Shown: positions 979-61,555 of the stretch, in pieces
How the letters are laid out: each line of letters starts with the position of its first letter
Numbering within the stretch: the stretch's first letter is position 1
Source: Diphasiastrum complanatum
Taxonomy: Eukaryota > Streptophyta > Lycopodiopsida > Lycopodiales > Lycopodiaceae
Direction of reading: 5' to 3'
DNA length: 64,000 nt
Assembly (NCBI GenBank): GCA_029204225.1
Contig: CM055102.1
Coordinates: forward strand, 27,320,922-27,384,921
Translations under genes and position numbers: made by a program
The notes under the pieces: model-generated
What the model was told of the DNA's origin: nothing
Databases searched by the model: none
Seen by the model: the letters and a program-made list of their open reading frames with translations, nothing else

Positions 979-1551
979 TTATTCTTCTATTCCTAATAGA
1001 GTACGAAACCTCTCAAATTTACATCTACCTAATGACTTAGTAAAAATATCTGTCATTTGATCTTTAGATCTACAAAAAACAAGATCAATGGCTCCATCAA
1101 GAATTTTCTCTCGAACAAAATGGTAGTGTATTTCGATGTGCTTGGTTCGAGCATGTAAAACTGGATTTTTGGCAAGGTAAATGCACTTTTGATTATCACA
1201 AGATATAGTAGTCGCATCCACCTGTGGTTGACCTAAATCCACAAGCAATCTTCGTAACCATACCGCTTCTTGTGTAGCATTGTTGAGTGCTCGATATTCA
1301 GCTTTCGTCGATGATATGACTACTATAGGTTGCTTTTTGCTGCTCCATGAAATTGTAGCTGTACCATAACTGAATGTATGACCACTGGTAGATTTTCTGT
1401 CATCAATATTACTAGCCCAATCGACATCTATATAACCTACCAACATTGGCGCTTCAAGCTGATCATACTTCAAACCAAAATTCAATGTCCCTCGAATGTA
1501 TCTGAGAATACGTTTAGCAGACTTCCAGTGTGCTTGACTAGGATCTTGCAT
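979..1551 (-). pseudogene. RNase H segment of copia-1 pol
   Basis: An open frame of 190 codons covering the copia RNase H region. Family landmarks are visible: ADW-like Tyr-Ile-Asp-Val-Asp-Trp near residue 40, a DDRKSTSG stretch, SSTKAEYRAL with the catalytic Glu, a DNQ motif, and an ARTKHIEIHYHFVREK tail. The frame ends 19 bp before the polypurine tract, so this is the natural C-terminus of the polyprotein. It is split from the reverse transcriptase by a frame change near 1560-1593. Confidence 0.9.
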
Positions 1552-1592
1552 ACTAATTGACTAACAACATCAACAACATAAGAAGTATCAGG

Positions 1593-2754
1593 TCATGTGT
1601 GTATCAAATAAATCAAACTACCCACCAGCTGTCTATACAGATAAGCATCCACTTTCTCAGATTCATCATATGCAGTAAGCTTCATGTTGACATCCATAGG
1701 TATACTCAAAGGCTTACAATCCTGCATATTAAACTTATAAAGCAAATCTTGTGCATATTTGCTTTGTGTAAGAAAGACCATGTCTTCCTTTTGCCATACT
1801 TCAATGCCAAGACAATAGTGCATCAATCCTAGGACAGTCATGTCAAAAGTATTGGAAAGATTTGATTTGATTTCATCGATTAACTTCTCATTACTTCTTG
1901 TAATAATCAGATCATCCACGTACAAGACAATGAACACTATATGTGAATCTTCTCTTAGAATGCAAAGATTAGGATCAGCATCACTCTTTACCATTCCTCT
2001 TCATTTGAAGTGTTCATCAATGCAAGAGTACCATGCCCATGGGGCTTGCTTCAATCCATAAATGGCACTCTCTCCCTGGCTCAACAAATCCTTGAGGTTG
2101 TACTAAGTACACCTCTTCATCCAGCACTCCATTAAGAAAAGTAGATTTAACATCCATTTGCTGGATCTTCCAACCATAGAAAGCAGAAGTAGCAATGATA
2201 GAACGTATAGTCACCATCTTAGCTATGGGCACAAAGGTTTTCTCAAAATCAATACCTTCTTGTTGCTTAAATCCTCTCGCAACCAACCGTGCTTTGTACT
2301 TGTTGAGTTGCCCATCTGTTCCATATTTGATCTTATAAATCCATTTGCAAGTGATAGGCTTCTTACCATCAGGTAGCTCAACCAAATTCCACGTCCTCTT
2401 TTTCGATATGGCTTCCATTTTTGTTTATATAACTGCACGCCACTCCTTGTGCTCCTTTGCTTCATCAATTTTTTTTGGTTCTTGAGCCTTGAGCACAGAG
2501 CCCATCAGGGCTAGATTCATCTCTAATCTTGCAGGAGGTTTTCGATTTCTACTTGATCTTCTAAGCTCTCCCTGCTCACTTGATTCGGGAGTATCTCCCT
2601 TATTAGCATCACTTGTTACTGACAAGTACCACTTAGGCACTCTCCTAGGAGTCTCATTATTAACCCTGTCTTTTTCCATTGGCTCTTCCATATGGACACC
2701 AACTTCTTCCTTCACTTGCACTTTCGCTTTATCATTAAAGGGATCAATTGTCAA
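1593..2754 (-). pseudogene. Reverse transcriptase and upstream linker of copia-1 pol
   Basis: Three adjoining minus-strand frames cover the linker after integrase (2425-2754, ending in an RRSSRNRKPPARLE stretch), the RT palm and fingers (2017-2418, with TWNLVELPDGKKPI, NKYKARLVARGF and DVKSTFLNG) and the RT core with the catalytic YVDD box (1593-1994, VLYVDDLIIT). The breaks between the frames are frameshifts, so no full-length enzyme is made. Assignment is secure because the order of motifs is that of the plant copia family. Confidence 0.9.
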
Positions 2755-2804
2755 TTTTATCTAGTCATTTTGACCCATCTCATCAAAAGTAGCATCTTTG
2801 GAAA

Positions 2805-3530
2805 TCACGATCTTTTGTGCATCTGTGTCATACATCCTGTATGCCTTGGCTCTTTCATCATATCCAAGGAAAATACACTTAACAACTTTTGCATCCAACT
2901 TCTTTCATTTTCATCAGGCACATGAGCGTAAGCATCACAACCAAATACTCGTAAATGAGAAACATTAGGTTTCTTTCCAGTAAAAGCTTTGTAAGGTGTC
3001 TTACCCTCCACGGACTTAGTAGGACACCGATTCAAGATATAAGTATTTGGCAAACCCTTGCTCTTAAGCATTGCCCTAGCCATCTCCACAATGGATCTGT
3101 TTTTCAGTTCTGCAACTCCATTCTGTTGTGGTGAATAGGGTGTAGTATTTTGTCTCTTGATCCCCTGATCCTTGCAAAAATTTATAAACTCTATTGAAAA
3201 ATACTCACCGCCACCATCTGATCTGAGGGTCTTAATATAACAACTTGTTTGTTTTTCAACTAGAGCCTTGAACTCTCTAAACTTGGCAAAAGCATCAAAT
3301 TTCTTGCTCATGAAGTAAATCCAGATATGTCTACTACAGTCATCAATAAATGTGATGAAATAGTAACAACCACTAATGGACCTAGTTTGTATTGGTCCAC
3401 ATAGATCACTATGAACAAGATCAAGAATGCCGTTGGCTCTTCTTGCTCCATCTTTGGGAAATCTCTTTCTATGATGTTTTCCCAAAATGCAACCCTCACA
3501 AATTTTTCCTTCAAAAGAAATATCAGACAA
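2805..3530 (-). pseudogene. Integrase of copia-1
   Basis: A 241-codon frame holding the end of the zinc-binding domain (Cys-x2-Cys followed by GKHHRKRFP) and the RNase H-fold catalytic core: first Asp in DLVHSDLCGP, second Asp in LRSDGGGEYFS, and Glu in the PQQNGVAELKN segment. The copia landmarks HLRVFGCDAYAHVP follow. A frameshift near 2890 cuts off the C-terminal region, and the N-terminus is separated from the pre-integrase segment by another break. Confidence 0.9.
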
Positions 3531-3671
3531 TCCAACAACTAGATTACCTCTTTATAGGATTTGCAAGCTTTGAGAACTAATATGACCAAACCTTTGATGC
3601 CAAAGGTCACTTCGACTATCAACAATGCTTACCATAGCTTGAATAAAAAATCTCGCATTCAATTTATAGAG

Positions 3672-3980
3672 TCAATTCTCGTGGACTCTAGCTCCTGTAG
3701 CAATCACTTTGTAGTGATTCTTGATGTCCTTGACAAGACATTTGTCGCTGTCAAACTCAACCTTGAGTTGTTGATCAGCCATCGTCCCAACAGATAGTAG
3801 ATTGTTAGCTAAGTCACGTACATATTGCACATTGCTTATCTGCTTTATCTTCCCGTTGGCTAACTTCACTGGTACCACTCCAACTCCTTTAACAGATAGC
3901 AATTTGCCATCAGCTTGTCCAACTTCATCACCATTGTTAGTTTCCTTGAGTTCTGAAAACCACTCTTTCCTTGAAGTCAT
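3672..3980 (-). pseudogene. Protease to pre-integrase segment of copia-1
   Basis: A 102-codon frame with the typical copia sequence between protease and integrase: VKGVGVVPVKLANGKIKQISNVQYV followed by LANNLLSVGTMADQ. The active-site region lies just upstream at about 3980-4020, where a frame change precedes a minus-strand reading resembling Trp-Tyr-Ile-Asp-Ser-Gly. Internal breaks make it non-functional. Confidence 0.75.
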
Positions 3981-4216
3981 GTGCTGGATGCACCACTATC
4001 AATGTACCAGGTATCCTTGGCTTCATCACTTGTCATTAATGTTGTAATGAACAATTTTGAACTTTCACCTATATCATTTTCATATTGATCATCATCGTAG
4101 TGATGTTGATCAGTATAATTGTCTTCATAATAATAGTCATCAAATTGATGTTGATCAGCATAATTTCCCGCTTGCTAGTTGTCTTTTCTTTGTTCCATCT
4201 CCTTCTGTTTCTTGAA

Positions 4217-5054
4217 GCATTCATGCTCCCAGTGGCTAGGTTTGTTGCAGTACCTACAATTTCCAGGTTTATTCTTGAGTAGCCTCGTCCTTGATCTCGA
4301 CCTTGATTCCAATTGCCTCGATTCGGACTATCATTTACTTGCTCATGAAATTGTTGAAATGATCCCCGGCTTGAGTTTCCTCCTCTTGATTGATACCTTC
4401 TCCTCTAACTGCAAGAGCTTGATCATAGCTCCTGTTACGATGATTCAAGTTCTCTTGACGTTGCTCTTCTTGCAAAAGCAATCCACCTAGTTCTTCATAG
4501 GTTGGAAGATTTTCTCTTGTGGCTATACTCGTCACAAACATCTAATGTGAGTCACTCAGACTATTCAATGTCAATTGCACGATCTCACGATCTTGTACTC
4601 GCTCTCCAATTGTTGCTAATTGGTCACGGATCTCTTTGATCTTCAGTATGTGATCGACAATAGTTGCACCATCATCCATTCGCAATGTATGCAACTTCAT
4701 CTTCAGAAATAATGTTCGAGATGTATTTGTCGTTTCAAACAATGCCTTCAGTGTATCCCATGCTTCTTTTGGTCCTTCTGAATCTGAAATATAGGAAATA
4801 ATTGCATCTCTAACTAGTAAGTTGATGACATTCTGGGCTTTCCGTTTTCTCCTATCAAATGTCCGCTGATCTTCTTCAATCACTGGCCTTGTCTCTTCAC
4901 CTGTCACGATCTCCCATAGCTCCTTTTCCATCAAAATGGTCTTCACTTTGAATTTCCAAACTGCATAGTTGTCAGCACCTTCCAATTTGCTTGACTCATT
5001 AAGGACACTCTCGCTTATAGTTGCCATTACTGGATAGATGAGTCTGGACCACAA
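4217..5054 (-). pseudogene. Gag of copia-1
   Basis: The frame 4542-5054 starts 17-20 codons before the family-typical gag beginning (KLEGADNYAVWKFKVKTIL) and carries the UBN2-type gag core (AWDTLKALFETTNTSRTLFLKMKL, LRMDDGATIVDHILKIKEIRDQL). Its reading continues through a stop into 4335-4541. Farther on, at about 4217-4275, a CCHC zinc knuckle CRYCNKPSHWEHEC can be read. The natural start is probably the ATG at about 5027, after Pro-Val. Several stops make it inactive. Confidence 0.85.
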
Positions 5055-5086
5055 AATTTATCACACCACCTAACTGTAATTTTTTG

Positions 5087-5335
5087 GATGTACACCTGAT
5101 ATCGGTATGACACGCGGGTGCATGACTGCTCGGGATTCTCTTTAGCTTGCGCGCGTGGATCCAATATTGGTACAGGTATGCGATATCGGTATGACGGGCA
5201 GAACCGCTCAGTATTTTCTTTACCTTTGGCACGTGGATCCGATATTGGTACAAATATGTATATCTATACGCGCGGATGTACGACTGTTCAGGATTTTTCC
5301 TACCTCTGGCATGTCGATCCGATATTGGTACTAAG
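5087..5335. repeat. About 80-bp tandem repeat, three units, in the copia-1 leader
   Basis: The segment GATCCRATATTGGTAC recurs at about 5155, 5235 and 5316, giving a period near 80 bp. Each unit also carries a Gly-Ala-Cys-Thr-rich stretch ending in CACGTGGATCC or similar. The array lies between the primer-binding site and gag. Tandem repeats in untranslated leaders are common in plant LTR elements and may tune transcription or packaging; that role is inference. Confidence 0.85.
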
Positions 5336-5592
5336 AAAATGAAAAGTAGAGAGAATATAAGAACTTTCAGAGGGAATATTCTAGATTCCTCACTACGACG
5401 TGGCGACTACGCTGTCTCCTCTTTGCAAAGATTTCGAAATGTGTGATCGTTCAAAGGACAAAGATCAGTAATGTGAAAAGTATGAAGCCTCCTAACTCTG
5501 AATGGCAGTACTAGACACTGTCTAGTGTGATTTGCGATACCCCAAATAGACAAATGAGAGATTTCTTGGCAAACCTCTCACACAAATGGCAC

Positions 5593-5796
5593 TTTTCACA
5601 ACAACTAGAAAGTATTTTAAAAAATTTCCCCCCACTCAACAGATTTTCAATCTGTCTGATACTGCCCTGGCCTTTCTGATGCCTTCGGGACTATGCTTTT
5701 CACAACAACTAGGAAGTATTGTAAAAATCTCTCCACTCAACAAATTTTCAATCTGTCTGATGCTGCCCTGGCCTTTCTGATGCCTTCAAGACTGTG
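5593..5796. repeat. 104-bp tandem duplication in the copia-1 leader
   Basis: The sequence beginning TTTTCACAACAACTAG at 5593 repeats from 5697 with few differences, followed in both copies by CTGCCCTGGCCTTTCTGATG. Period 104 bp, two units. Non-coding leader sequence. Confidence 0.85.
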
Positions 5797-5970
5797 TCTT
5801 CATTCCCCACTAATGATTCTAAGCTCCAAACCTGCAAAATACACCAAAAAAGGATTTCTTCCAGCCGTTTTTGTCTCTCCAAGCTTTCACCTCCCATGAA
5901 GGACTTTCTCAATTCATTGTAGAGCCTGTGACAAGTTGTATCCATTGATCAGGCACGTAGGACTATCACT

Positions 5971-5982
5971 GCTCTGATACCA
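5971..5982 (-). other. Primer-binding site, initiator Met tRNA, copia-1
   Basis: Minus-strand TGGTATCAGAGC directly follows the 5' LTR. This is the sequence complementary to the 3' end of plant initiator methionine tRNA that most plant copia elements use. Confidence 0.95.
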
Positions 5983-6232
5983 TGTCAATAATCAGATATG
6001 CAACATCAAGCATTCACCAACAAGAAGGCGGAAGAAGAACAGGCACTATCACTCTGTCACACTATCTCATATAGAATGTAAAATGTACAAATGAACCCTG
6101 AACCTTGATAGAGAGAGAAAACCTATGAGTAGACTAATAGACTAGCCTACGACTAATGACAGCTGGTCACAACTGTCAACACTAATGTACATCATAAACA
6201 ATAACAATGAAGTTTATCATTGATTTCTAATA
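5983..6232 (-). repeat. 5' LTR of copia-1
   Basis: 250-bp partner of 710-959. Its outer end reads TA instead of TG on the minus strand, a single transition that would damage integration ends. It is followed by the primer-binding site. Confidence 0.95.
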
Positions 6233-6237
6233 GAGAT
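6233..6237. repeat. Target-site duplication GAGAT, right copy
   Basis: Identical to 705-709. The pre-insertion sequence would have read through GAGAT into the AT-rich DNA before the copia fragment at 6279. Confidence 0.9.
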
Positions 6238-6278
6238 TAATGAAGATACTTTTAACAATGCTCAGAGGATCTCTATTT

Positions 6279-6990
6279 TTAATATATTTCATGTAGACTT
6301 CCCCCCCAATCAATGATCTTTCCATCATGAAATCTTATGTACAATGATGGATCATAAGAACTTAAAACAAAGTTGATGGAGATAAGAAAAGAGTTTAGCC
6401 TAGAGTACCATGCTCTAGGTGCTTGCTCAAGTCCATAAAGACTCTTTTTCAAAAAACACACTTTTTCTTCATGCTCCTCCTTGATGAAGCCCTCGGGTTG
6501 CCTCATGTAGATATCTTCTTCCAAGTAGCCATTGAGGAAGGCATGTGTAACATCAAGTTGAAATAGCTTCCAATTGAAAGTAGTAGCAAGGCTAATGATC
6601 AATCTTATTGTAACTAGCTTAGCCACAGGAGCAAAAGTTTCATCATAATCAATTCCTTTGGTTTGCAAGAAACCTTTTGCTACAAGCCTAGCTTTATACT
6701 TATTTATTGATCCATCTTGATTATACTTCAATCTATACACCCACTTGTAATCAAGTGGTTTCTTCCCTTGAGGAAGATCAACAAGTTCCCAAGTACGATT
6801 CTCCATGAGAGCATCATACTCCACTTGCATAACATTCATCCAACTTTTTGATTTACAAGCATCTTCATAGCAAGTTGGTTCATCGAGCATTGAAATAAGG
6901 AAAGTGTATGAAGTAAAAGATAAAATGCCTTCCCTTTGATCACCTTTGCCATCTTAAGTGAGCCTCAATGGCTCGGCTCTTGATCTTGTG
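6279..6990 (-). pseudogene. Copia reverse transcriptase fragment (copia-2)
   Basis: A 203-codon frame (6279-6890) matches the RT N-terminal half: NRTWELVDLPQGKKP, SINKYKARLVAKGFLQTKG, DVTHAFLNGYLEEDIY, SLYGLEQAPRAWYSRL. It stops at HDGKII, before the YVDD box. Upstream similarity continues to about 6990 (an Arg-Ser-Arg-Ala-Glu-Pro-Leu-Arg-Leu-Thr-like linker), so the piece is cut at both ends. It is a close relative of the element at 58.8-62.8 kb. The copia-1 insertion begins just beyond its 3' end. Confidence 0.85.
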
Positions 6991-7650
6991 GATCGAAAAT
7001 AAGTGAATCATAGATGTAGTAGTTAAAGTATACACGCTTTTCTAAGTCTTATTCTTTAATAAGCAGCGAGCATTGAGCATTTTATACTATTGTCTTCTGT
7101 CTATTACAATCTTTGATATGAGTAGATTTGTAGTAATTTTGAAGTCTAAGTTTGTATTTCATTTCTACAATTTTCCAAAATATTGTTTCATAGCAACTCA
7201 GAGAAGGTAGAGCTATTGAGTGGGACCGTTAATTGTAGGATTAGTGTGAATAGAGAAGTTACCTTGAAGGCTTTACACAAGTAGCATAGAACCAAAAATA
7301 ATGTATATAAAAATGTGTGCAACATCAATACAAAACCATGTGTTTTCTGTTGTGTCTTGTGCCCTATTGATGAGTTGAGTAATAGTCATCTCTTTGCTCT
7401 AGCTTGTATTGTGAATCATCAAGGATCATCTTGAAGGTAGAAGTCTATCTACACTACATGTCTTATCTCTCAAGTAGCATAAAGATTCAATTTCTTTTGC
7501 AACAGATTCTTATAGATTTTGTTGATCCTTTTTTGTTGTTGTGAAAATACATAATTTTGGACACCAGCATAGTGCTTCTACATAGCAGTGATCAAATTTC
7601 AATTGATTTTAATTTGCATTGGTCACATTTTATCTATTCTACGCAAAGTA
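6991..7650. other. AT-rich spacer, no gene seen
   Basis: No frame or repeat is recognised. It could contain a worn LTR or leader of the plus-strand copia relic that follows, but no paired LTR is visible. Confidence 0.4.
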
Positions 7651-8760: not shown

Positions 8761-9555
8761 TAGGAGTTTGGAACAGCTATGATACTTTATTGTGTCAAGC
8801 AAAATCTTTATGTTGTATTAAGAAGTTTAAGATGGATAACAATGCCCATGGAGGTGAATTGTACATTTGAAAAGGGAGATAATGAAGCATTTTTTAATAG
8901 CATTACTCCCTATAAAAGAAGAGATCTATAATTGAGAGAGAAGAACTTGGATTCTAAGGAGAATGTGAAAAAATATGCAAATGCCAACTACATGTTTAAA
9001 TCTCAATCTTTATTAGGAAATTAATTTTAGGGCTAAGAGCCATGAATTTAGACCTCATTCTTCATTAGAATGTCATTCTAAGAACGAGAGCCACATTAAA
9101 CGGATGGTAGAATCAAAGGGAAAAATTGTGGGAGTTCATCAATGGAGAGGTAGACCTAATGCTACCTCTTCTCTATATATGATCATCATCAAGTTTGTAT
9201 AAGCTTTTTTGGTGGCATTGAGTTGGTTTGAAAATTATGCTTTGTATTCCATCTTTTGATGTATTTACCTCTTGATTTGTCATCTATGCGAGTGATAGCC
9301 TATTATCCTCAATTAAATATCAAGCTCGTTTATCTTGGATACATTTCTTTTTTTTATTTCATTGAATTTAAAAATTCATATTGTAGCTCCATGTGTGCCA
9401 AGAGTTCCCATCATAGAACTTGGAAATCTCTATGTAAAACTTTCACTTGACCTTATTGGACTGACTACCAAATACTTGTCAGAATAGTATGTATAATAGA
9501 TTGTGAATATTACTTACTTCAATACCCCTCCTTAATAATCAGTTTATTCTCACAA
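8761..9555. other. Spacer, possibly a worn LTR
   Basis: No gene seen. A TATA-like CCCTATAAAAGAAG at about 8908 would fit the U3/R boundary of a plus-strand LTR behind copia-3, but no partner LTR is found in the window. Confidence 0.3.
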
Positions 9556-9930
9556 ATATTCATCAAAGATTGAAAACATTCAAAATTCCAAGGTATCAAC
9601 AACTTGCTCATTGGTAAACCAGCTCCACTTCTTAAAAATTGATGTTTTCATGAATGTAGTAGTGTGTCTCAATGTTTTTAGTATGAGCAGAAATACCAAA
9701 TTCTTAGAAATCTGGATACAACTCTGTTTTATCATAATAAATGGTGGTTGATGCATCTTGAGGAACCTCTAGCTTCTCAAATAGTCTTCTCAACCAAAAA
9801 CTTTCACATATAGCATATGTGACACAATCAGACTTAGGTTCAGTAAAAGACAATGTTATTGTAGCTCGTTTCTTACTCTTCCAAGATATAGTATAAGAAC
9901 TAGGTAGAAAACATACGCTGAATTATAATG

Positions 9931-16860: not shown

Positions 16861-18640
16861 TCACATCCTCTCCCTTCAATAGATGTCTACTGATCAAGAG
16901 AGAAAGATATGCTTCCCACCATATTAAAACTTTGTTGGCATACCATTAAGACCATGCGCCCTATCCTTACTCATATGGCAGAAATCCCTCTTCAATCACT
17001 CTATCTCAAAGGGTAATTAGAGGTTCCGTAGCTTCTTCCTCAACTAGAACTTTCTATGTACAATAATAAGACTCCCAAGAGATGGCTCCATCTCCTTTAA
17101 GATCTTGAAGTTATTGAATTTTTTTTTAGAAAGTCTCCTAAAACTATCTAATTTTCCTAGCTTATCACGTTTATATTAACTTCATAATGTTCTTTATTTA
17201 TTATTTTTTCTTCTCAAAATCATATTGTCCTTTTTAAGCTATCTAAGATAGAAAGTATATGGAGGTCACCATTTTGTGCATAATGTCCTACTCTGACTAC
17301 TCAAACCATTCAAGAGTATAGACACATCTTCTTTGTCTCAAACTCTAGGTGCATAAACTCCAACTAGCCAATATTCTTAGGGAAGGACCCTAAGGAAGCT
17401 TTCATCATACAAAGTTGATTTAAGTACATGAGTTAGTCTATGTCTACAATATAAAGTTGATGTAATTACTTAAGGTTAGGCTTTGTACATGGTTAATATT
17501 TGTGAGCCTTTTGACGAGCCAAATTATAGTATGTGCATGTGTTTTTCATCTCGTAGTTAACATGTAGTTAGCATAAAATGTTTTATAATTAACTTGACAC
17601 CTGGAATGGTTCTATCAAATCTAGTAGAGTGGCGAAAGTCTTTTCTCAATTTATAGTATAATAAAAAAGAGCTGCATCTCCTCTCCATATAGTTCATGGA
17701 TTTGCAGGTATCTTCATACACACCATTTTGAGAAAAAGTTGGGTGTACTATGCTCAAGTGAGCTCTTTCATTAAAATACCATCCATTGGTACTGAACCTT
17801 TTGATTGTAATATCAATTTTCTCTCAATTTGTGCTTTCAATGTAATGTCATTGGTATGAATATTTATTCTTAGTGGATTACAATGTGATTGAATTTTTTG
17901 ATCATCAATCCAACAACAACACACATTTGGAACTATATCGTAGAAGGAGATTTGCTAATTTGCACTCATGCGCACAAGAAACACTATTAGAACAGAGTAT
18001 CCTATGTGGGAATTGCAAACATCACTAGACATCTCCAATTATTATCCAGGTCACTATGATAATAATCCAAAGTGTGTCACTCTTTTTGAGTTGCCATAGA
18101 CATTATTCACAAATTTAATAGATGGTCATAATTTTTCTTTTCAAATTTTTTATTCAAATCATATGATCAAAAAACTTTCTACCACATCAATAGTAACTTT
18201 TTTAAAACATTTATGAACAAACTTACGTAACAAAAACCGCAATAAGTGGTTCTAGTTGTGGAAAACATATTTTAGCCATTGTTTTGAACAAGAGAATGTT
18301 AAGATTCACCAATGATAAGACCTTTGGTTAAACCATTAGAACTAGAATCTGGTTTAAATTTCCAAGTAAAACACGATGACATTTGTTTTGGGACTTTGAC
18401 CTAAAAAAGAGTAATCTTTTTTGGTGTTTTTTAATGGTCCTAGTTCTAGGCCAAAATCATGGATTTTTTTAATAAATCTCTAAATTTTGTTTTTTCAAAA
18501 AATCCAAAAAATGCATATTATAAATAAAGAACTACAAGTTTTTTGTTGCAAACTTCATAAAGCCATCATAATTACAAATGAAATAATAACTCGAAATCCC
18601 ATTGAAATACAAAACAACTTAAATTATATTTGCACATTCT
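16861..18640. other. Spacer, no gene seen
   Basis: AT-rich with short frames only. An imperfect inverted pair (ATTAGAACTAGAA near 18340 and CCTAGTTCTAGG near 18434) is the only structure noted. If the 18.6-24.7 kb module is a transposon, its left terminus should lie here; I could not find it. Confidence 0.4.
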
Positions 18641-18645
18641 TTTTT

Positions 18646-21600
18646 TTAAAGTACATTTTCTAAGGAATTTTCACTGATGCATCTCAATTCAGAACTTGAC
18701 ATGTTCTCAACACTCTCGTTTTCAGCTGATGAAGTGGAAGACCCATCTTCGTCATCAGAGTCAACTGACATATCTTCCTTAGAATCCGTGTCTAATGTTG
18801 ACAAAAAACCTTGTAAATCAGCTTTTCTCTGTTGATGATGAGTGGAGGATGATGGTTTTTCCAGTAATCCATGTCGTTCTTTCAATATAGGTATAGTTGA
18901 CTTTCGTAGATGATTGGTCATTGTTAATTCAAAATTAAATGCCAAACATCTACATCTTGTAGATTCAAATCGTCGACTCTTGGTTGATTTTTTGGCAGTA
19001 TCTTTCTCTTGCCCTTTGGATCTACTTGCAACATTGTGAGTTCGTACCTTCCCAAAAAAGCATTCGTTGAAGTGGTGCGCAACCAATGGACATGTAGTAC
19101 TTTTGTTTGATTGCTATTTTGAATAAGACTAAGTACTTTGGCAATCCAAAATGGATGTCCTCCATTGTTTTCTGAAGCTAGAAGTGGAACAAGGCTTCCA
19201 ATTTGGATTTCATTCAAATCACCACACCATTTCATTTTTGCAGCTTTTACACACCCACATAAATTTCACGTTCCTCACCTTGCACAAGCTGCAAGAAATC
19301 ATTATCTCGAGGAAGATATGAAGTTTCGACAATTGTAGTTGATGTTCCTAATTTATGAGGCCAATGAAATTTTTCAGTTGTTGATGTATGTTCGAGATTG
19401 AGCAAATCGATTTTTTGTTCCTCGAAAAAGTCCCAATGTTGATCAAACTCATCAAAAAAATGATAAGCTGCATGAATATCTGATTCCAAAAAATATAATG
19501 AGGGAAATGGATCAATCTCACGATGTTCTCTTTGCGCCTTTTGTTCTTCTAGCAAGAACTTCAAGGGAGACAACACAACAATCTTGATTTGAGTCGATGG
19601 AATACTAAGCAAAAATCGAACTCCTTCAAGAGGTAGCCATGAAACTGAATCTGAAAATAGTTTGTCCCATAATAATATAATGTCTGATTCGTTACATTTG
19701 ATTTTATACTAGTGTTGAAAGCTAATATCATTAATATTAGCTACGCATTGCTCTGTTTCATTGGACGCCTTAACATAATCACGAAAATCATATGTGTATC
19801 TGATTAATGACACGTTTGGCTTTGGCACATACGATTTCTCAACAATGCTTTGAAGCCTTGGTAAAGAAAATGCTTTCTTGCGTCTCAACCTCTTAGAAAA
19901 GCAACTAAACATTTGATCAATTTGATCGTGGGCTACCAACAAAAATCCTATTTTTATTTTTTTGAAATTCTTTTCTCCACTAGCATGGACAAGTATGCCA
20001 AAACAGTTTGGTTTTTATTTTTCCTAGCAGTGTTGTCAAGCTCCAAATAAAGTATTTCTGGAAGATTTTCACCAAATTCGCAAATTATCTTATGTACAAT
20101 GGTGATCGTCAAATTTGGATCGTTTCGAATATTGGGATAATTAAAAAAGACCTTGGACTCTCAAGTGCCATTAAACACAAGTGCTCCAACGAGATGAACC
20201 TGAATAGAATCTGCCTCGTTCAAATTTTTGGGCACTCTGACAAAATGAGACAACATTGTTTTCTTCTGATCCATGCCATCAATAACAAGGCCCAGATATT
20301 TTTGTGGATATTCCAAACATTTTTTTTCGATGCTTTGCCAACTTTTGTCTTTCAACTGTTTGTTGATCCCTATGCAGTTGAAGAGCTTTTGCAGCATCCA
20401 CTAAAAATACAATGATTCACTTATTTAATAGAATAAAGATCATACCATAATGATATTAAAAAAGATTGCAACTTAAATTTTTTCAAAACAAAAAGTATTA
20501 AAATGAAAGACAAATTTGATTAATATTTACCTTTCTCATCATTGGTCTTTGCAAGTTGTTTTGTAGACTTTAAAAACTCGCAAGTGGAGCATACTGTCAT
20601 TCATGTTTTTTTAAAAATATTTATCAGTCCAAAATCTCTTTTCCAAATTCGAAAAAAATATGAAACTCGAATATGGAACATTTTTTGTTTTGGCAAACTC
20701 TTTGTACATCAAAAATAATTTTAATTTTGTAAAATTATCTAGCAAGTGAGAATATAAGAAATTAGGCAATTTCTCTCCATGCACATCTATGAAATGTTTT
20801 AGCCAAGCAGTTGTATTTAAAGCATCTGGAGAAACAGTTCGACCTTGTAACGATCCCGTAATGTTGGGTCTTTCTGAAGTCGTGCATGCATTCGTTGAAG
20901 CCGTGAGTTTCCGATTGCGTGAACTGCTTTGTAATCTTTGCAACAAACCTCCAAAGCATTTAAAAAATACAAAAATGAGTTTTGTCCAGCCTCACTGTTA
21001 CACACAAATAGTAATTTCTCTCATCCTTACTTCGTAAAAAGAAGTTTGATCTTAATTTTTCAATTTTTCTGATACTCAGCTTTTGCAAACAACAGGATGA
21101 GCAGCAAATAATATTCTGTATCTTTCGAATCTCAGATTTTGTAATCAACTGTTTTTTACGATTCGTTAAATCAGGTGAGGATCTCAAGTCTCTCTTGTAT
21201 TTTTCTTTTTGTTTGGAGTCTGATCTATAAATTGAACTTGTAACACTAGTAGGTGCTTGAACTGGTTGATAATGTGTTAGAATTTCATGACTCGAAATTC
21301 TGGCTCCAACCTCAAAATGTTCTGGACCCTCAGAAGGTTCTAAATTTTCAACGAATATAGGCCTTTTAGATTTAACACAATGAACATCACTTTGAGAAGG
21401 TCTCCTACGAACATGAGGAAAGCTTGAACGTTGCGGATCAACAGACTTACGCAGACTGTTGATTTACTAGAATCAGTAACTGAGTTAATTGAAGCTTTTG
21501 ACTCATCACTCAACGATTCAACTTGTTCAAAAAAACAATGTTCTAATTGTGTAGAGCTTGTATCTGAAGAGGAGGACAAGGTCGAAAGATTTGACACAAG

Positions 21601-21824
21601 TTGAGTTACGGACGTCATTTCTTGAAAAGTACTTGCGTGAGGAATTTCAGAAGATGAACGGGTAAATGATGATGATGTCACATCATTTATGAAAATATGT
21701 TGAGAATCAGGAGTGACTTTATAGAAAAAGCTTTCATTGGAAATATCAGATGAAGATGATGCACTTGTTGCAACGTATTGAGTTACAACTACTGGAATAG
21801 AAGAGGTAGAACTACTTGACATCG
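18646..21824 (-). pseudogene. Decayed DUF7869-type gene, possible transposase
   Basis: Minus-strand frames in several registers form one long protein. N-terminal: Ser/Thr-rich, 21340-21822. Then a Cys-rich segment (ICCSSCCLQ, about 21100). Then a conserved middle domain at 20611-21005 (CKDYKAVHAIGNSRLQRMHA; GRTVSPDALNTTAWLKHFID) and VCSTCEFLK (about 20577-20600). A GT-AG intron follows at 20401-20530. Next come IDGMDQ (about 20269-20283), LDNTARKNKN (about 20016-20040) and VAHDQIDQMFS (about 19911-19936). The C-terminal PFWIAKV...VHWL domain (about 19050-19160) and acidic tail end at 18646. I recognise this order from the family called DUF7869, whose spaced acidic residues suggest an RNase H-like, DDE-transposase-like core; that reading is inference. 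At least five frameshifts and a TGA at 20161-20163 inactivate it. The usual GHTHDxID motif is shortened to AHDQID. Confidence 0.65.
20401..20530 (-). other. Predicted intron in the DUF7869-type gene
   Basis: On the minus strand the coding reading ...AKTNDEK is followed by G|GTAAATATT. A pyrimidine-rich end ...TGTATTTTTAG leads into VDAAKALQLHRDQQ. 130 bp, AT-rich, typical plant GT-AG intron. Confidence 0.6.
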
Positions 21825-22079
21825 TAACCTTAAAAAATATTCTAACTATGTACTTATGCTAAGCATAGACCCGTTAAAATAGTTAACACATAAAATTGAA
21901 TGTGCTCCACAAACTTAACTGCAACCTATGTTGGTCATAGAACAAATAAAAAGCTATGTGAACCTCAATAGATGGAAACAAGAAAAACAACTAAATGCAA
22001 ATGAGCAACAAGCCTAGAAAGTAACTGGTTAATTGAAATTTCCAATGGCTACCATGCCTTAAATATTGTTTGGCAGCAT

Positions 22080-22134
22080 CCTTAGGGTTAGGGTTGACCC
22101 AAGAGTAGGTTTAGGATTAGGTTTAGGTTTGGAC
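22080..22134. repeat. Telomere-like short repeats
   Basis: TTAGGGTTAGGG and then GTTTAGGATTAGGTTTAGG, degenerate forms of the plant telomere unit TTTAGGG, between the first palindromes. Too short to be a former telomere. It might come from break repair or be chance. Confidence 0.5.
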
Positions 22135-22147
22135 GGTCCCGGCTTAG

Positions 22148-22260
22148 ACTCGAGGTCGGCGTGACGTGAGGTGAGTCGTGGCAATTCGGCCCCGACGCAA
22201 GCTCGAGGTCGGCGAGAAGTGAGTTGAGTCTCATGCTCCAAATCGGCGTGAGGCGAGGGT
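22148..22260. repeat. GC-rich direct repeats
   Basis: CTCGAGGTCGGCG followed by GA-x-GTGAG-x-TGAGTC occurs at 22149 and 22202 (53 bp apart), with a shorter copy at 22243. This is the most GC-rich patch of the divergent intergenic region. Confidence 0.7.
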
Positions 22261-22566
22261 CTGGAAAAAAAAATTATTTAAGGACCGTAGTCCAAGCATA
22301 ACTCACCTCATCTGTGAATTCAGAATCACACATGCTGCCAGAGCTCTCGCTGCGACAAAGTCACGGATTTTTATAGTATATTGCATACGTTCTCGCTCAC
22401 ACATTTCTTGACGGTAAGATTATTGTCATTTTTTAACTTTGTTCTATGCTTAGCATGGGTACTAATTTTTTGCATTACTAAATATTCAGGTTTTAGCTAG
22501 TGTTCATCTTCTTAAAACTTGGGTGACCTATGCTCAGCATAGGTGGCTGCACGAGTCCTCTCCTCT

Positions 22567-22938
22567 AACCTATGTTGAGCATAGGTTGTGTTCGGGTCCT
22601 AAGTAACAACCTATCCTCAGCATAGGTTGTCGGCGAGATGTTTCTATTCTTACCACATTTTGACCTATGCTGAGCATAGGTTGCATCTCTGGTCCTCTTC
22701 TAACCTATGCTCAGCATAGGTCGTTACTTGCGTGCTCTAGTCCTACCTATGCTCAGCATAGGATGTCTTCGCATGCTGCTTGCTAACCTGTGCTTAGTAT
22801 AGGTTAGAAGAGGACTAGAGATGTAACCTATGCTCAGCATAGGTCGATAGGTGATAAGAATAAAAACATCACGCCGACATCCTATGCTGATCATAGGTTG
22901 TTACTCAGGACTCAAACACAACCCATGCTCAACATAGG
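22567..22938. repeat. 372-bp long inverted repeat built from palindromes
   Basis: The left arm (22567-22720) and right arm (about 22785-22938) are near-perfect inverted copies, matching in the palindromes and also in the spacers (for example TGTCGGCGAGATGTTT against its inverted partner TGTCGGCGTGATGTTT). Copies of CCTATGCTNAGCATAGG in it lie at 22567-22587, 22608-22628, 22663-22682, 22702-22721, 22745-22762, 22785-22805, 22825-22844, 22881-22897 and 22922-22938. The copy at 22745-22762 is the exact centre. The DNA could extrude as a cruciform. It lies between two divergent genes, so it could act as a shared operator, transposase-binding array or replication/recombination site; the function is unknown. 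Confidence 0.9.
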
Positions 22939-23049
22939 CTGTTACTCGTATTTTTTCCGTTTTACAAGGCTTAGTCTTAGAAAAGTGAAACTTTTGAGAT
23001 GTTTTAGTAAGAAAATGTGTTGAATTTTTAGTTATGATTTTTAGAGATG

Positions 23050-24661
23050 TTTCACAAAAACTGCTTGTCTATTTGAAGTTTTCTAGGGTTGCCGATGGTC
23101 AACTTTCTTTGGCAGAAATGAGAAAAGAATTTTAAAGGTAATAGTCATAATCTAAATATTTATTTTCATGTTACTTTTTGTAATAAAGTGATTTTCATGA
23201 TTTTGTTGGATTTTTAACAATTATACTTTTTAAATGCAGGCATAAATTATTTATGAAAGTTCAAGAAGCCCTTGTGATAGGGTTAAATTGTCAAGATTTC
23301 GAAGAGTGCTAGAGGCTTTATCCTCTGAACAGCCAAAATGAATCTTTGAGTCCATTTCTGATTTTGTTTAGAGACATGGTATTTATTTCACCCATGCTTA
23401 GCATAGGTGCTTATTAATTGTTTCTTTTTTATATTTTATGTCTCCTATGCTAAGCATAGTTTTTTATTTATTTAATTATTTCTTTTTTATACTTTAAGTC
23501 TCCTATTCTATTTTATATTTTATGTCTCCCATGCTAAGCATAGCTTTTTATTTTTCAGTCTCCCGAAGATAAGAAAAACAAAGTCCTTCCAAGGCAATTC
23601 AAGAGACATATTCTGAAGACAAAAGTAGAAAAAAGGAACAGGGAGAGATTAGCACGGGGTGAGACCATTGCGGAGGAGAATCCATTAGAGACCTACCTTC
23701 CCAAAGGTGTCGATGATCAACCATGTTTTTACTTAGTTGAGGAGGACGATTGTAGAGAAATTTCAATTTCTTTTACAAAAAAGGCCTTATACACTCTACA
23801 TTGTCTATATACCATATGGATTTCAGATGAAGGAATAATTAAATGACGATTCTCCCTTCAAATTCACTGAAATCCATAGTTTCATGCAGGGTTTTCTCGA
23901 GTCACAACTTCTCCAATTTGGAGAGTTGTTATTTTTCATTCTTCTTGGCAGTCAGCTTCAATATAGAAAGCTCTACTAACTTTCTAATGCGGGAATAGAA
24001 AATGCTGTGTGGTAAGTTTTAAGTTCCTGAATTATTAATTCATATTTTAATTCATAATTATATTTTAAATTTTTTATTTTAAAGTTAAATTTTTAACCGT
24101 CGGTTATTATTCTTTGGATAACAAACGCTCGATGCTTCATTACAACATTTCCAGACTGACAAGTTTTGGAAACTTGTTTCAGTATTCAGCCGTGATCAAG
24201 AAATTAAAGAATCCAATGACAGGTTCCGTGGCTTGTCCCTACCAAAAGTCACAACAATTAATTAATCATTTAATTGATATTTTTTCTCATCCAACTGATT
24301 GAGTTTTGGATTTATTTAGCGGTAGCGGCACTACGAGCGCATGTGCTGTTCAGAAAGATAGACATGTTGCTACAATAGATTTAGATTCTAAACTAGTTGA
24401 TTTTGTAAAAATGAGAATGAAATCTCTTTCAGTTTTGTCAAATGAACTATCTGAGGTGGGAAAGAGTTTAGATAGCGAGGATTCAGTAATTCCCTTGTCC
24501 AAGGAATCTCAGCCTCCTACTAGCAGAAAAGTAGGCGATATAGGAGAATTTGCTGATGTCTTGGTTCAAGATTATAATGTGGTTACGGTAGTCGAGAAAA
24601 CTGTAGAAGAGGTGCCACTTGAAACTATAGGGCTACTCAAGAAAAAAAAAAAAAAGATGTA
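23050..24661 (+). pseudogene. Decayed beta-class DNA methyltransferase (N4-cytosine / N6-adenine type)
   Basis: Four plus-strand exon-like blocks are joined by three GT-AG introns (23138-23239, 23379-23558, 24012-24084). The first gives KLLVYLKFSRVADGQLSLAE and the second VQEALVIGLNCQDFEEC. The third is a Lys/Arg-rich block, SPEDKKNKVLPRQFKRH onwards. The last block (24085-24661) holds the strongest match: PYQKSQQLINHLIDIFSHP, a stop, then VLDLFSGSGTTSACA and HVATIDLDSKLVDF. This is motif X plus motif I, the S-adenosylmethionine loop FxGxG, of N4/N6 DNA methyltransferases. Motif I at the C-terminus means beta class; a Thr-Thr-Ser-Pro-Ile-Trp reading near 23897 may be the remnant of catalytic motif IV (SPPY/W). 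The TGA at 24300-24302, a TAG near 23311 and frame changes in exon 3 make it a pseudogene. An Asp/Glu/Val-rich tail ends in poly-Lys before the TAA. Confidence 0.7.
23379..23558 (+). other. Predicted methyltransferase intron carrying three palindromes
   Basis: Donor GTATTT after ...FLILFRDM, acceptor TTTTTCAG before SPEDKKNK. It contains the palindrome at 23391-23408, 23444-23459 and 23528-23543, so the repeat family extends into the gene. Confidence 0.6.
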
Positions 24662-25890
24662 AATGAACTCGATGATTTTTGAGAATAAAAATTTTCTTTT
24701 GTTTCAGAAAATAATTGCATTTATATTTTTTGAAGTATTGTGTTTTGAATTTTTTTTTATTGATTTAATGTTCTTAATTTGTGTTTTAATGATTTAAAAT
24801 TAGAAATTTGAAACTTTTAAAATTTTTTAACATTGATAATCATTACCAAAACTAAAATTGTAACGATTTGTCAAGTTTATAATATTTTAATTTTGGATGT
24901 ATTTTTATAATATTTGTTATAAAAAAAAATATTGTTAGGAACTTAAAGAAATGAAAAAAAAAAATTCAAGGTGATTTAAATATTTTCACAAATCATTTAA
25001 TTTTGATTATTGTAAAGTAATTTCATTTGAGTTTATTTAATGTTTAAATATTCAATGAACTTACATAGGTATAAGTAAAAATTTTAAAATTTTTAAAATT
25101 TTAAAAAATAATGATTAAAAGTTTTATTTTAATTTAAGAAATATTTTTTTTGATACAAGATTGTAATTCAAAAAACTTTTAAAATTCCAAAAAAAAAACT
25201 ATAAGTTTTGTTTTAAATAAGCAAAAAATATGTTCTAGTTATTTTAGTGGTTGTGTATCTAATGATTTTATTTTAAATAGTATTATTATTTTATATAAGC
25301 TAATTTTAAGTTATTTATGAAAATCTATTGACCAAATTTTTGTAGGTTGAATTATTTTCTTGCAAAATACAACATTTTTTTAACATTACAATATATTTAT
25401 TTGAAGTATTTTAAATTTGGATACTTTTTAAAAAAAATTAAAAAATTTGAAAAAAATGGGTCTCCATGTCATTTCTCTTTTTTTTGGTCATCATGTTATA
25501 AGTATTTTTTCTTAGCAAATAAGTTCGATATAAGAGATAGTCTCTCAAATATTTTGCTAATAATGAAGTTGCCATTAATAAGCTGTATAAAACAATGTTG
25601 ATGTGCCGTATTTCAAATTTCTAAATATGTCGTACAATTTTTACTATTTACTATTAAAATTTAGCAAGTCATAGAAAGATATTTGCACCAAATGTAGAAG
25701 TGAAAATTGGTCAATACAATTATGGTCCATAATACAAAGTAAATAGTCATCAATAATCAATTCATAGAAGGACTACACACCATGATCATAAGTACATTGC
25801 ATAGATAATACAAGATCGAGGTCTAAGAAGAACATGTCCATGACATTTTTATGTTAGAAGTACATTGGCAAAGCCAAATTATTAAGCACA
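24662..25890. other. Very AT-rich DNA, no gene seen
   Basis: Long runs of A and T, no coding frame of note, no palindrome copies. It is expected to hold the methyltransferase 3' end and the right terminus of the module, but no inverted terminus is visible. Confidence 0.45.
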
Positions 25891-47432: not shown

Positions 47433-48634
47433 TCACGGTTGGTGCCTTTGTATCTTCGTCAAGTTCAGCATGTTGAAGAACTTCTGATGCTTGATCCTAG
47501 GAAGTGCTTTGGTGAAGATGTCTACGACTATTTTTGTTGTGGAGAAGTATTGAAGGATCACTTGCCCTGAGAAGACTTTCTCCCGAATGAAATGATACTG
47601 AATTTCTATGTGCTTGGATTTGCCATGAAATCTACATAACATAAAATGTGATTTAGATTTCCCTGAATATATCTCATCACTTTCTTTAATGCTATCCAAT
47701 GAGAGATCCTAGGACTAGACATGAATTGACTTAACATGCTTACAATGTATGTTAAATATGGTCTAGTACACAACATTGCATACATCAAAGATCCTATTAG
47801 TGAATGATAAGGGTACTTCGCTATGTCGAGTTCTTCACTATCAGAATCAACACAAGTAGGTTTAGTCAATAGTATACTTGGATCCATTGGAGTATCAATT
47901 GGTCTGCAATTAGACATATGAAATTTTTTAAAAATGCCTTTTAGATATGTGTGTTGGCTAAGATAGATCTTCTTCTGAAGTCTATTTCTAGTAATGTGAA
48001 TTCCTAGCAAAAAATGGACAGCTCCTAAATCAGTCATGTCAAATTTCTTTGACAGATCACTCTTAGTAGTGTGCAGAAGAGAAGTGTCGTTAAAAAAAAT
48101 AAACGCATCATCTACGTAAAGAGCTATGTGAACTAAAGTGGTGCGTATATGCTTTGAATAAACATTACAGTCAACTGAATTGTTTGCAAATCCCAATTGA
48201 ATGAGATAGGAGTTGATTCTATCAAACCATGCTCTTGAGGCCTGTTTTAGACCGTAGATTGCTTTGTGCATCTTGCACACTTTGTGCTCTTGGCCTTTGA
48301 CTTCGAATCCTTACGCTTGGAAGGTGTATAACTCATCTTCGACATTGCCATTGAGAAATGTTGTCTTGACATCCATTTGATGCATTTCATGGTCTTTCAT
48401 GGCTGCTAACGCAATTAGAGTCTTGATTGACTGCATTTTGATGACATGACTGAAATTTTTTTGATATCCTTTAGCCACCACCCGTGCTTTCCATTTAACA
48501 ATGGAAGCATAAGAGTTGATCTTCTTCTTGAAGATCCACTTGTTGTCGATAACTCTCTTGTGAGAGGGAAAGTCGACCAGTGTCCAGGTCTGGTTCGTCA
48601 AAAGTTCGCTTTTCATAGCTTCTTGCCACTTCAC
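47433..48634 (-). pseudogene. Reverse transcriptase and RNase H of copia-6
   Basis: 48311-48634: RT start (WQEAMKSELLTNQTWTLVDF; VKWKARVVAKGY; MDVKTTFLNG). 47606-48280: RT core with YVDD (VHIALYVDDAFIFF) and the stretch through GSLMYAMLCTRPYL and LKKVMRYIQGNL. 47433-47699: the RNase H end (KHIEIQYHFIREKVFSG). The central part of RNase H is deleted. Confidence 0.85.
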
Positions 48635-48669
48635 AGCATCCTTGGAGTTAATTGCTTCGGCTAGGCTTT

Positions 48670-49622
48670 CTAGTTCTTCTGATGAAGTCCAGAATGATTG
48701 AGGTGTACCGTGAGGACGTTTGGTTGACCAAGATGTGATGATGCTTCTTCTTGAATTTCTCCAGATCTGTTTGAGCTAGCTTGGTCTAGTCTGATGACAG
48801 GTACTGTCGGCTGCTCGGCTTCTGTAGCTGTAGCTGCAGGTTCTATAGAAGGAACATCATCGTTGGAAGAATCCATGCTACATAAAATAGATGAAATGAT
48901 ATAGCATCGTTTATCGATGGTTGTTTAAAATCATAGTATATATGTTCTTGAAATATTACATCCCTAGAGACAAATACTACATTGGTGGATGGATCGTAAA
49001 CTTTATAAGCTTTATGTTCATCAGGATAGCCAATGAAAATATATTTATTTGTCTTATGATCCAGCTTCTTCCTAAGCTGTTTAGGAATGTAAACAAAACA
49101 TATACAACCAAAAATTTTTAAATGGCTGACACTAGGCTTGTGTCCATGCCAAACTTCATAAGGAGTTTTATTGTTGACGGCTTTGGTGCTGGATCTGTTC
49201 TGTAAGTAACAAGCTGTGGTAGTAGCTTCTGTCCAGAACTTCGCAGGTAGATGTGATTGATGTAGCATGGATCTGGATGAGTTGAGAAGAGTTCGGTTCT
49301 TCCTTTCTGCAATCCCGTTTTGTTGAGGTGAATAGGAAGTGGTGAACTGTCTTCTAATACCATGTTCAGCCATGTAGTCAGACATGTCGTTAGAGAGGTA
49401 TTCGTTGCCACCATCAGTTTGGAGTGCTTTCACTTTTGTAGACATTTGTGTCTCAGCCATGGCCTTGAATCTCTTGAAGCATTCAAAGGCTTCAAATTCG
49501 TGCTTAATGAACAAGACTGTAGACCATCTAGAATAATCATCTATGAAAGTGATAATATAGATTGCATATCCTAAGGGCGGAGTTGGCATTGGACCACAAA
49601 GATCGCTATGTACAAGATCCAA
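48670..49622 (-). pseudogene. Integrase and linker of copia-6
   Basis: 48843-49622 (259 codons) holds the catalytic core: Asp in MDLVHSDLCGP, Asp in LQTDGGNEYLS, Glu in QQNGIAERKNRTL. FWTEATTTACYLQNRS, HLKIFGCICFVYIPK and FIGYPDEHKAYKVYDP follow. All three catalytic residues are present. The frame then runs out of register; the linker continues in 48670-48876. The N-terminal zinc domain lies just before 49622 in broken frames. Confidence 0.9.
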
Positions 49623-49930
49623 TACATGTTTTGTTTTGATGGAATGTGATTTGGGAAACTTGCTTCTAGAGTGCTTCCCATAGATTCATGATTCACAAAA
49701 GAAAGATTTGCTATCCAATAAAGAAGAGAAATACAATCCATCAACTAAATTATTACAACGCATATAAGAAAGTGATCTTGTATTCACGTGTCCAAATCAA
49801 CTATGCCATAGAATAACATTATCGTTTACATTTTCATGGGAGATACTAGCTAATGCAACTGAAAGAGGAGGAGTGTGAAGAATTGTCAAAAATTGACAAA
49901 TCTAGCTTGATCAAAGACCATGTAGAACAT

Positions 49931-50485
49931 TGTAAATATTGTGTATAATTGGGTTCCACACATGTAAGGCCAAGATGCCACGTGGCAACCCACTCCTAAT
50001 TTAGGTTAGGTCAAGTCAAGAGAGTTGGCCATGTCTATTTGGTGGTCATCCCTACTTTATAGGACCTACACCTAAGTTTAAGGTGAAATTTTGACCAACT
50101 AGCTATCTACCAAGCATAACTCTAGGATCTAGGCTAGAGTTTCATTTTAGATAGGAGAGTGAGTTAACTTCCTTATTACATGCTGGAAATCCACCTAAGT
50201 TCAATAAGGAAGTCGAATTTGCTATGTATTCCCTCTCTCCATAGTGAGAAGATAGAAAATTTTTGGAGCTCATTGGCAATCTCAAGCTAGTTCACTATGT
50301 ACACTGAGTTTTTGTGATCCAAATGAAACCAAATCAATTTCTACTTGTTTCTCAGGTTGAAGGCCATACTACAGCCTGTAGTACTTTTTTGTGTCTAGTT
50401 TTTTGATAGATTGTTAAGCAAGCATCCAATCACTCCGGTGGATCTTTTGTAAATCCATTTATGGTCCTAAAGTACAGCACTTTCA
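49931..50485 (+). repeat. 5' LTR of copia-7
   Basis: Begins TGTAAATATTGTGT and ends ACTTTCA. It contains the palindromic G-box GCCACGTGGC at 49977-49986. It lacks an 85-bp stretch found in the right LTR. Confidence 0.85.
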
Positions 50486-50487
50486 CA

Positions 50488-50499
50488 TGATATCAGAGC
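50488..50499 (+). other. Primer-binding site of copia-7
   Basis: TGATATCAGAGC, one base from the initiator Met tRNA site TGGTATCAGAGC, two bases after the LTR. Confidence 0.8.
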
Positions 50500-50918
50500 C
50501 AAGTACAAGAGCATAAGCCATTGATCTAATGCAAATCCATTTTTAGCAAGTTTTGGTGTTAAAACTAGTATTGAGAGGGCAAGCTAGAATCTTGATTTTG
50601 GTGAGGAGATTTGATCCCAAACTTGGTAGGGGTCCAAATCCGCCACATGTGTGGGCAACTCTGAACCTGCATTAATGCATGGCATTCATTTGATCCAAAG
50701 AAATTCAATTTGTGAGCTTTTGATGTAATTTTTGGTGGAAATCTTAGGATAAGCTACCAAGATTGAGTGCCATTGATTAGATTTGACATAGGATCATGAA
50801 GTCAAATTAATCTAGGCTGAAATCAGGTCCTCTAAACTTGTTTTACAGGTCTTGAAAGTACATCAAAAAGTGTGAGGGAGATTTAGTCATGTTATTGTCC
50901 AAAAATAGCCAAAATTGA

Positions 50919-51266
50919 CAAGATTTGATTGTAAGTACATTTCACAACATCTTATCTTCATTCCAACTTTGTGAGGGAGTGCTAGAACTGAGATTATAAG
51001 TCCATTTGTTGGATTAGAAATCTAATTTGAGTGAAAAACTACAAGAGAGAGGCCTTAGTGAGTTTTTAGAGACAATCAAATTCATTTCTTGGCAAGATTT
51101 GTTTGAAAGTAGTTTTCACTTCATCTTATCTTTATTCCAGCTTTGTGAGGGAGTGATAGAACTGTGATTATAAGTCCATTTGTTGGATTAGAAATTAAAT
51201 TTGAGTGAAACACCGCAAGTGTGAGACCTTTGTGAGTTTCAAGTTCAATCAAATCTATTTCTTGTT
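50919..51266. repeat. 174-bp tandem duplication in the copia-7 leader
   Basis: CAAGATTTGWTTG starts at 50919 and 51093. Both copies share CATCTTATCTTYATTCC and GTCCATTTGTTGGATTAGAA. Confidence 0.85.
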
Positions 51267-51283
51267 TGTAGAAGTCACTAGTA

Positions 51284-52264: not shown

Positions 52265-52345
52265 CACTCTTTCAATGCTTCTAAAAAGTTTGTCTTTACT
52301 GCAAATGATGAAGAGTGTAGGATAGATGGTGTTGGCACCATCTCT

Positions 52346-58836: not shown

Positions 58837-58843
58837 CTCCTCC

Positions 58844-61543: not shown

Positions 61544-61555
61544 CTTAAAAAGTCT

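Follow-up and report, generated by a model that had tools for sequence, protein, structure and literature searches.

We analysed a 64-kb stretch of Diphasiastrum complanatum DNA (C11:27320922-27384921 in a 1.745-Gb genome, hereafter the window) and found that its positions 18370-25497 are a decayed copy of a repeated, cut-and-paste-type DNA transposon family. This family almost certainly carries two genes, namely a left, minus-strand gene for a protein with the orphan domain DUF7869, probably the transposase, and a right, plus-strand gene that most likely encodes a bacterial-type DNA methyltransferase. The two genes diverge from a region rich in one palindrome, CCTATGCTNAGCATAGG. Taken as a whole, the proposition that the transposon carries both genes and that its methyltransferase acts on the palindrome regions stands, in our judgment, at even chances.

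A bounded transposon with two divergent genes

A first-pass annotation had described a decayed minus-strand gene and a decayed plus-strand gene on either side of a palindrome-rich region at 18646..24661 and had read them as a dead DNA transposon. Both genes are seen, at 21822-18646 and 23076-24662, with the array between them, and alignment to other copies shows that the unit exceeds the earlier bounds and spans 18370-25497. Alignments of the window to better copies break off a few bases from these two positions. The features of the element and its genes are given below, other loci of the genome being cited by number (L001 and so on).

18370..25497: whole transposon copy, 7128 bp; ends match those of L012, L002, L045, L047, L048 and L049
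18366..18369: left target-site duplication, GTAA; the right copy, ATAA at 25498-25501, has one mismatch
18370..18380, + strand: left terminal inverted repeat, AACACGATGAC, from the shared-end comparison
25487..25497, - strand: right terminal inverted repeat, GTCATCATGTT on the + strand, from the shared-end comparison
~21822 to 18646, - strand: decayed left gene, putative transposase, with a Ser-rich N-terminus, a Cys-rich part, DUF7869 and a C-terminal part (three-frame reading)
19709..20014, - strand: open reading frame (ORF) with the DUF7869 core segment (profile positions 87-161 of 192; Pfam E 2.1e-17)
23076..24662, + strand: right-gene remnant (methyltransferase gene), first exons lost by deletion at ~23080 (ORFs and alignment to copies)
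23800..23835, + strand: decayed motif IV region, IVYIPYGFQMKE; mostly IADIPYGFQMKE or IANIPY in other copies
24228..24410, + strand: methyltransferase motif X and motif I, with VLDLFSGSGTT at 24303-24335

The two window ends are inverted repeats of 11 bp that differ at one position, and the family consensus is AACAYGATGAC, with mismatches in some copies. Repeats of this type lie at both ends of seven independent insertions (the window, L002, L012, L045/L048, L046, L047 and L049). Exact 4-bp target duplications were found in four of these seven, all with both ends read: AATA in L002, TTGG in L045 (whose flanks are common with L048), TTCC in L047 and AAGA in L049. Three of four bases agree in the window copy (GTAA/ATAA), the L046 duplication is compatible with 4 bp (with a one-base shift) or 5 bp, and that of L012 is undecidable, the copy being inserted in a long TC microsatellite (~796-947 and 9490-9569 of that locus). 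The longest copies measure 8545 bp (L012), 8272 bp (L045), 8661 bp (L048) and 8794 bp (L047), and members of the family are dispersed at different genomic places. As other copies hold the two divergent genes around the palindrome array inside common ends, the two genes are paired within a single bounded element. The reading as a dead transposon thus stood up: aligning full copies, as the first-pass annotation had proposed, brought out the common 11-bp ends and 4-bp duplications, and both genes lie inside the same ends rather than in separately bounded elements.

Other copies were sampled in two ways, and each gene was looked for in them with protein pieces taken from L012 and L047 (E <= 1e-8). 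The palindrome-picked sample consisted of all 12 palindrome clusters among the first genome places listed, corresponding to 11 regions on contig C1, of which 8 align with the element. In 4 of the 11 (L002, L009, L010/L011 and L012), the array is flanked by the two genes in divergent orientation, each at least in part, the left gene of L009 being represented by its end only, without DUF7869. A single gene remains in L003, L005 and L008, and the array alone in L007. The methyltransferase-picked sample consisted of seven loci fetched around matches to the right-gene end; used as a DNA query, this end gave 1164 first-look candidates, 40 of which were scored, those 40 at 90-100% identity. Both genes were found in five of the seven loci (L045-L049), four of them independent as L045 and L048 share flanks, and in L046 the left gene is reduced to a piece. 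The search for further host copies suggested by the earlier annotation therefore returned others with at least part of both genes in the genome.

Identical right flanks, over the bases shown, were seen in the pairs L045/L048, L026/L027, L031/L040, L034/L036 and L023/L024, which so are segmental duplications or assembly redundancy. Elsewhere in the window, our reading of the ORFs at 979-7000 and 47606-63000 points to several broken copia-type retrotransposon polyproteins.

The right gene most likely encodes a beta-class amino-DNA-methyltransferase. In L047 it comprises about seven coding exons, with splice sites inferred from sequence, and the exon carrying IADIPYGFQMKE (IADIPY) comes directly before the exon with motif X and DLFSGSGTT. 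The resulting order is IV, X, I, which we take to be that of the beta class, as we take the names of these motifs to be the customary ones. The last exon of L047 matches N6_N4_Mtase (PF01555) at E 5.6e-13 (49.8 bits, above the cut-off of 26.7) and phage DNA methyltransferase families at up to E 8.4e-11, and its nearest solved structures by sequence are CcrM (6pbd, 1.1e-6) and RsrI (1.8e-6). The match of the window ORF at 24303-24662 to N6_N4_Mtase is weak and below the cut-off (E 3e-4, 21.2 bits). A fuzzy scan, which possibly missed copies with a lost motif and counted some duplicates, found the motif IV region in 26 of 41 sequences; all of these but the window (25 of 26) have D or N followed by xPY. 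DIPY or NIPY instead of SPPY at this position presumably leans to N6-adenine, so that by its motif IV the protein would most likely be an N6-adenine enzyme. Relative to L012 and L047, the window lacks ~1.9 kb at ~23080, where these two copies carry the first exons, and ~90 bp at ~24094. Among phages, 183 records have weak matches (25-32% identity among the 10 matches listed), and a scan of genome contigs for the methyltransferase exon gave 35 candidates, 0 of them confirmed. For exon 3 (LGGIHNLQAW...), a ParB-like reading was dropped, as Pfam, PHROGs, NCBIfam and PDB sequences gave no supporting match.

The left gene is interrupted by frameshifts and stops in the window. Its DUF7869 segment nonetheless scores 63.8 bits against PF25273, above the gathering cut-off of 26, and an ORF of L012 covers nearly the whole domain (E 4.1e-49, 167.2 bits). 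A stretch reading LDNTARKNKN lies directly upstream of the window segment in a different frame. Both family assignments of the first-pass annotation, DUF7869 on the left and beta-class motifs X and I at the end of the right gene, are thereby borne out. Among 6739 candidates, the only relatives of the left gene at E <= 0.001 were P0001 from the liverwort Riccia sorocarpa (E 3.1e-88) and the JGI proteins P0002 and P0003, with 36-39% identity. The three share the motifs IVIDGMD, QLDN followed by ENK, and GHTH followed by ID. AlphaFold modelled P0001 and P0002 poorly (mean pLDDT 33.4 and 36.2); both models run strand-strand-strand-helix-strand-helix-strand-helix, with acidic motifs (IDGMD, LDN) ending strands 1 and 4. 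We take this order and these acidic positions to be as in RNase H-fold (DDE/D) transposases, and the motif order suggests a transposase or nuclease fold for DUF7869. A Foldseek search with a low-confidence DUF7869 model gave 0 matches at E <= 0.001, and its weak RNase H-fold rows (Argonaute, RuvC), none reaching that threshold, were not counted as evidence. A profile search of PDB sequences returned one chance-level match (E 0.11), and a scan of viral contigs for DUF7869 gave 181 pattern matches with 0 confirmed. Since no third gene is apparent among ORFs of at least 90 aa in L012 (8545 bp) and L047 (8794 bp) and conserved, spaced acidic motifs are present, the DUF7869 protein is probably the transposase of the family, which gives this orphan domain a likely role.

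Pairwise dN/dS ratios show signs of past purifying selection on both genes. The ratio of means and the median were 0.52 and 0.53 for the methyltransferase last exon (32 copies, 489 pairs), 0.31 and 0.33 for methyltransferase exon 3 (6 copies, 15 pairs), 0.49 and 0.66 for the first 170 codons of the DUF7869 exon (5 copies, 9 pairs) and 0.67 and 0.68 for the left-gene end (6 copies, 14 pairs), all pooled over decayed copies, many containing stops, with three of the four exons based on 5-6 copies. Pairs with dS <= 0.02 were excluded, as were copies spanning <= half of an exon (2/8 for exon 3 and one each for the two left-gene exons; the last exon kept 32/32). Because decay drives dN/dS towards 1, selection seems to have preserved the methyltransferase no less than the left gene. 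These values support the view that selection may have maintained the methyltransferase as part of the element.

The palindrome array and what may act on it

Sites of the palindrome are concentrated in the space between the two genes and extend into the right gene.

21853..21869: palindrome site adjoining the presumed ATG of the left gene on its 5' side (scan with <= 3 mismatches)
22443..22938: array of 11 palindrome sites (<= 3 mismatches) separating the divergent genes
22569..22938: large imperfect inverted repeat within the array, arms 22569-22721 and 22786-22938
23391..23544: three palindrome sites within a presumed right-gene intron

The window holds 15 sites with <= 3 mismatches, with 0.19 expected, and none of 100 shuffles reached 15. 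Genome-wide there are 2141 exact sites, clustered among the places listed, and the reversed-pattern control has 0. In L047, each of the 12 sites (<= 4 mismatches) falls on the 5' side of the left gene, in the space between the genes or within one of two inferred right-gene introns, and the window and L012 show the same pattern (between genes, inferred introns). The centre base is free over 117 sites (C 38, G 28, A 26, T 25). We make no claim of helical phasing from site spacing, given the relatedness of the copies and their heterogeneous spacings.

In the mechanism that we propose, the palindromes in the promoter region and introns would be recognition sites that gather an element-encoded protein, either the methyltransferase or a partner. 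The methyltransferase would then mark the element's own control DNA near the palindromes, and such methylation could counter host silencing or tune transposase expression. The first-pass annotation had likewise supposed an enzyme that marks the palindromes of its own element, for protection or for control of transposase. By itself, action of the methyltransferase on the palindrome regions is a tentative proposal that we place a little short of even. An element with its own amino-methyltransferase and candidate target arrays would offer a defined place to look for N6-adenine methylation. A broader scenario, in which a DUF7869-transposase lineage captured a bacterial-type adenine methyltransferase that docks at the palindrome arrays and the roughly two thousand palindromes, including those in other repeat families, form a transposon-written 6mA/4mC layer, we regard as unlikely.

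CpG observed/expected ratios range over 0.72-1.02 in the promoter part of four copies (17-26 CpGs per promoter part). In genes they are 0.49-0.66 and in the window flanks 0.34-0.37, a pattern compatible with reduced cytosine methylation in the promoter part. As a sign of escape from silencing, CpG retention was set aside as too weak, given values of 0.33-0.61 in the array and an average of 0.58 in other fetched loci.

Several observations weigh against the reading of a two-gene element that marks its own palindromes. Three of the 11 palindrome-picked regions (L001, L004 and L006) have no similarity to the element, a microsatellite aside, and the occurrence of the palindrome in them weighs against an element-private mark. 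Two of the seven methyltransferase-picked loci (L043 and L044) have no left gene. Among element copies, 142 arm pairs are altered on one side and 4 on both, so that, with decay mostly hitting one arm, there is no visible restoration of palindrome symmetry. Two limited searches for protein relatives of the methyltransferase gene came back empty, one with the joined right gene of the window (0 of 1899 candidates at E <= 0.001) and one with the right gene of L047 (0 of 7514 at E <= 1, with the query covering region 230-760 and DLFSGSGTT starting only at 780). To these are added the array and other-loci CpG values, the poor DUF7869 models with their empty fold search, the pooling of decayed copies in the dN/dS ratios and the bias in the array comparison given below.

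The best-surviving alternative assigns the palindromes to the other protein. They would be binding sites of the DUF7869 transposase, serving transposition or autoregulation, and the methyltransferase would act elsewhere, for example on transposase-blocking sites or host DNA. The position of sites in the shared promoter region and adjoining the presumed ATG of the transposase gene fits this account, as does a symmetric motif with a free centre base, expected of a dimeric binder. However, the sites are internal, away from the ends, and also occur in inferred methyltransferase introns where a transposase would have little evident use for them, and we consider this account possible and clearly less probable than methyltransferase action on the palindrome regions.

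Slightly less probable still is that the palindromes are host-factor sites, or a regulatory motif common to several repeat families that the transposon borrows for its transcription. This would explain why three of the 11 C1 regions are unrelated to the element and why the L001 array is located beyond a gene with an RPE65-type domain, yet the element does align to the other eight regions, and its dense arrays are found at the same position from copy to copy.

It is improbable that the large inverted repeat is a source of small-RNA hairpins or a by-product of inverted duplication, leaving the palindrome without a protein partner. Its 153-nt arms are 88% complementary and the single-strand DNA fold is strong (z -24), as a hairpin source would have it, but further sites lie outside the inverted repeat, on the 5' side of the left gene and within inferred introns. 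Across an alignment of eight arrays, the sites are also somewhat better conserved than the intervening sequence (site columns 89% identical vs 79% elsewhere), a contrast biased by the choice of site columns through motif match in L012. Lowest of all we rank a non-autonomous element, with both genes as cargo mobilised by another transposase: the DUF7869 fold is unproven, but ORFs of at least 90 aa in L012 and L047 give no obvious third gene and the DUF7869 exon bears signs of past purifying selection (5 copies).

The three palindrome regions unrelated to the transposon have distinct contents. In L001 (1866-3954 and 5017-5343), a palindrome array lies ~1 kb beyond ORFs, the first of which has the RPE65-type domain (E 1.5e-85), that is, a carotenoid cleavage dioxygenase-like domain. 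L004 contains, at ~4300-5120, units that look repeated by eye and carry the palindrome and CTTATG/CATAAG-arm variants. L006 (C1:12716100-12726000) has, at 1738-2865 on the + strand, an ORF of 376 aa whose core histone domain is divergent (Pfam Histone, E 1.8e-22) and which continues into a long C-terminal extension; a palindrome array not belonging to the DUF7869 element lies ~1.9 kb away. Of the 11 core-intact sites in these three regions, 3 are the variant CTTATGCTNAGCATAAG, which is altered on both arms.

Relation to known elements

A literature search over titles and the beginnings of abstracts, with most subscription papers outside its scope, returned no paper naming DUF7869 or PF25273, and none in which a DUF7869 transposon, or any DNA transposon bearing an N6/N4 methyltransferase, is described. 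Among proteins, the left gene is homologous to DUF7869 proteins (PF25273) such as Riccia sorocarpa P0001 and the two JGI proteins. The comparisons that follow refer to the accessible parts of the papers cited. Closest in arrangement are fungal DNA transposons (KDZ, Plavaka, EnSpm and others) that carry TET/JBP genes beside the transposase gene (PMC12730594). Like them, the present element combines a gene for a DNA-modification enzyme and a transposase gene within one DNA transposon; unlike them, where the enzyme oxidises 5-methylcytosine, it has a bacterial-type amino-methyltransferase, and host, transposase family and ends differ. In particular, Zisupton (KDZ) transposons have an 8-bp target-site duplication (PMC12730594), in contrast to 4 bp here, which sets the present family apart from them.

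In VANDAL21, one of the anti-silencing VANDAL transposons of Arabidopsis, VANC target motifs are repeated in upstream regions and introns (PMC5735166). The likeness lies in short motifs multiplied upstream of genes and in introns and in an element-encoded epigenetic regulator, here a proposed one. VANC, however, causes methylation loss and binds YAGTATTAY, whereas the present element has a methyltransferase with putative palindrome binding, and the analogy is functional only. Selfish elements carrying DNA methyltransferases are also known among retrotransposons, as in DIRS elements with Dam-like adenine enzymes and DNMT-bearing elements of dinoflagellates and charophytes (PMC5890265). In contrast to those retroelements, with cytosine-5 or Dam-like enzymes, the present family is a DNA transposon with a predicted beta-class, CcrM-like enzyme. 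The bdelloid rotifer N4CMT, a host gene depositing 4mC at transposons (PMC8885841), is likewise an intron-containing eukaryotic gene for a permuted N6_N4_MTase of bacterial type, but it belongs to the host, whereas the gene described here is transposon-borne. Reports of N6-adenine methylation in eukaryotic DNA are disputed (PMC12695648). Overall, transposon-borne epigenetic enzymes as such were already known; a DNA transposon with a bacterial-type N6/N4 methyltransferase extends, by a further type of enzyme, the range of epigenetic tools that DNA transposons have captured.

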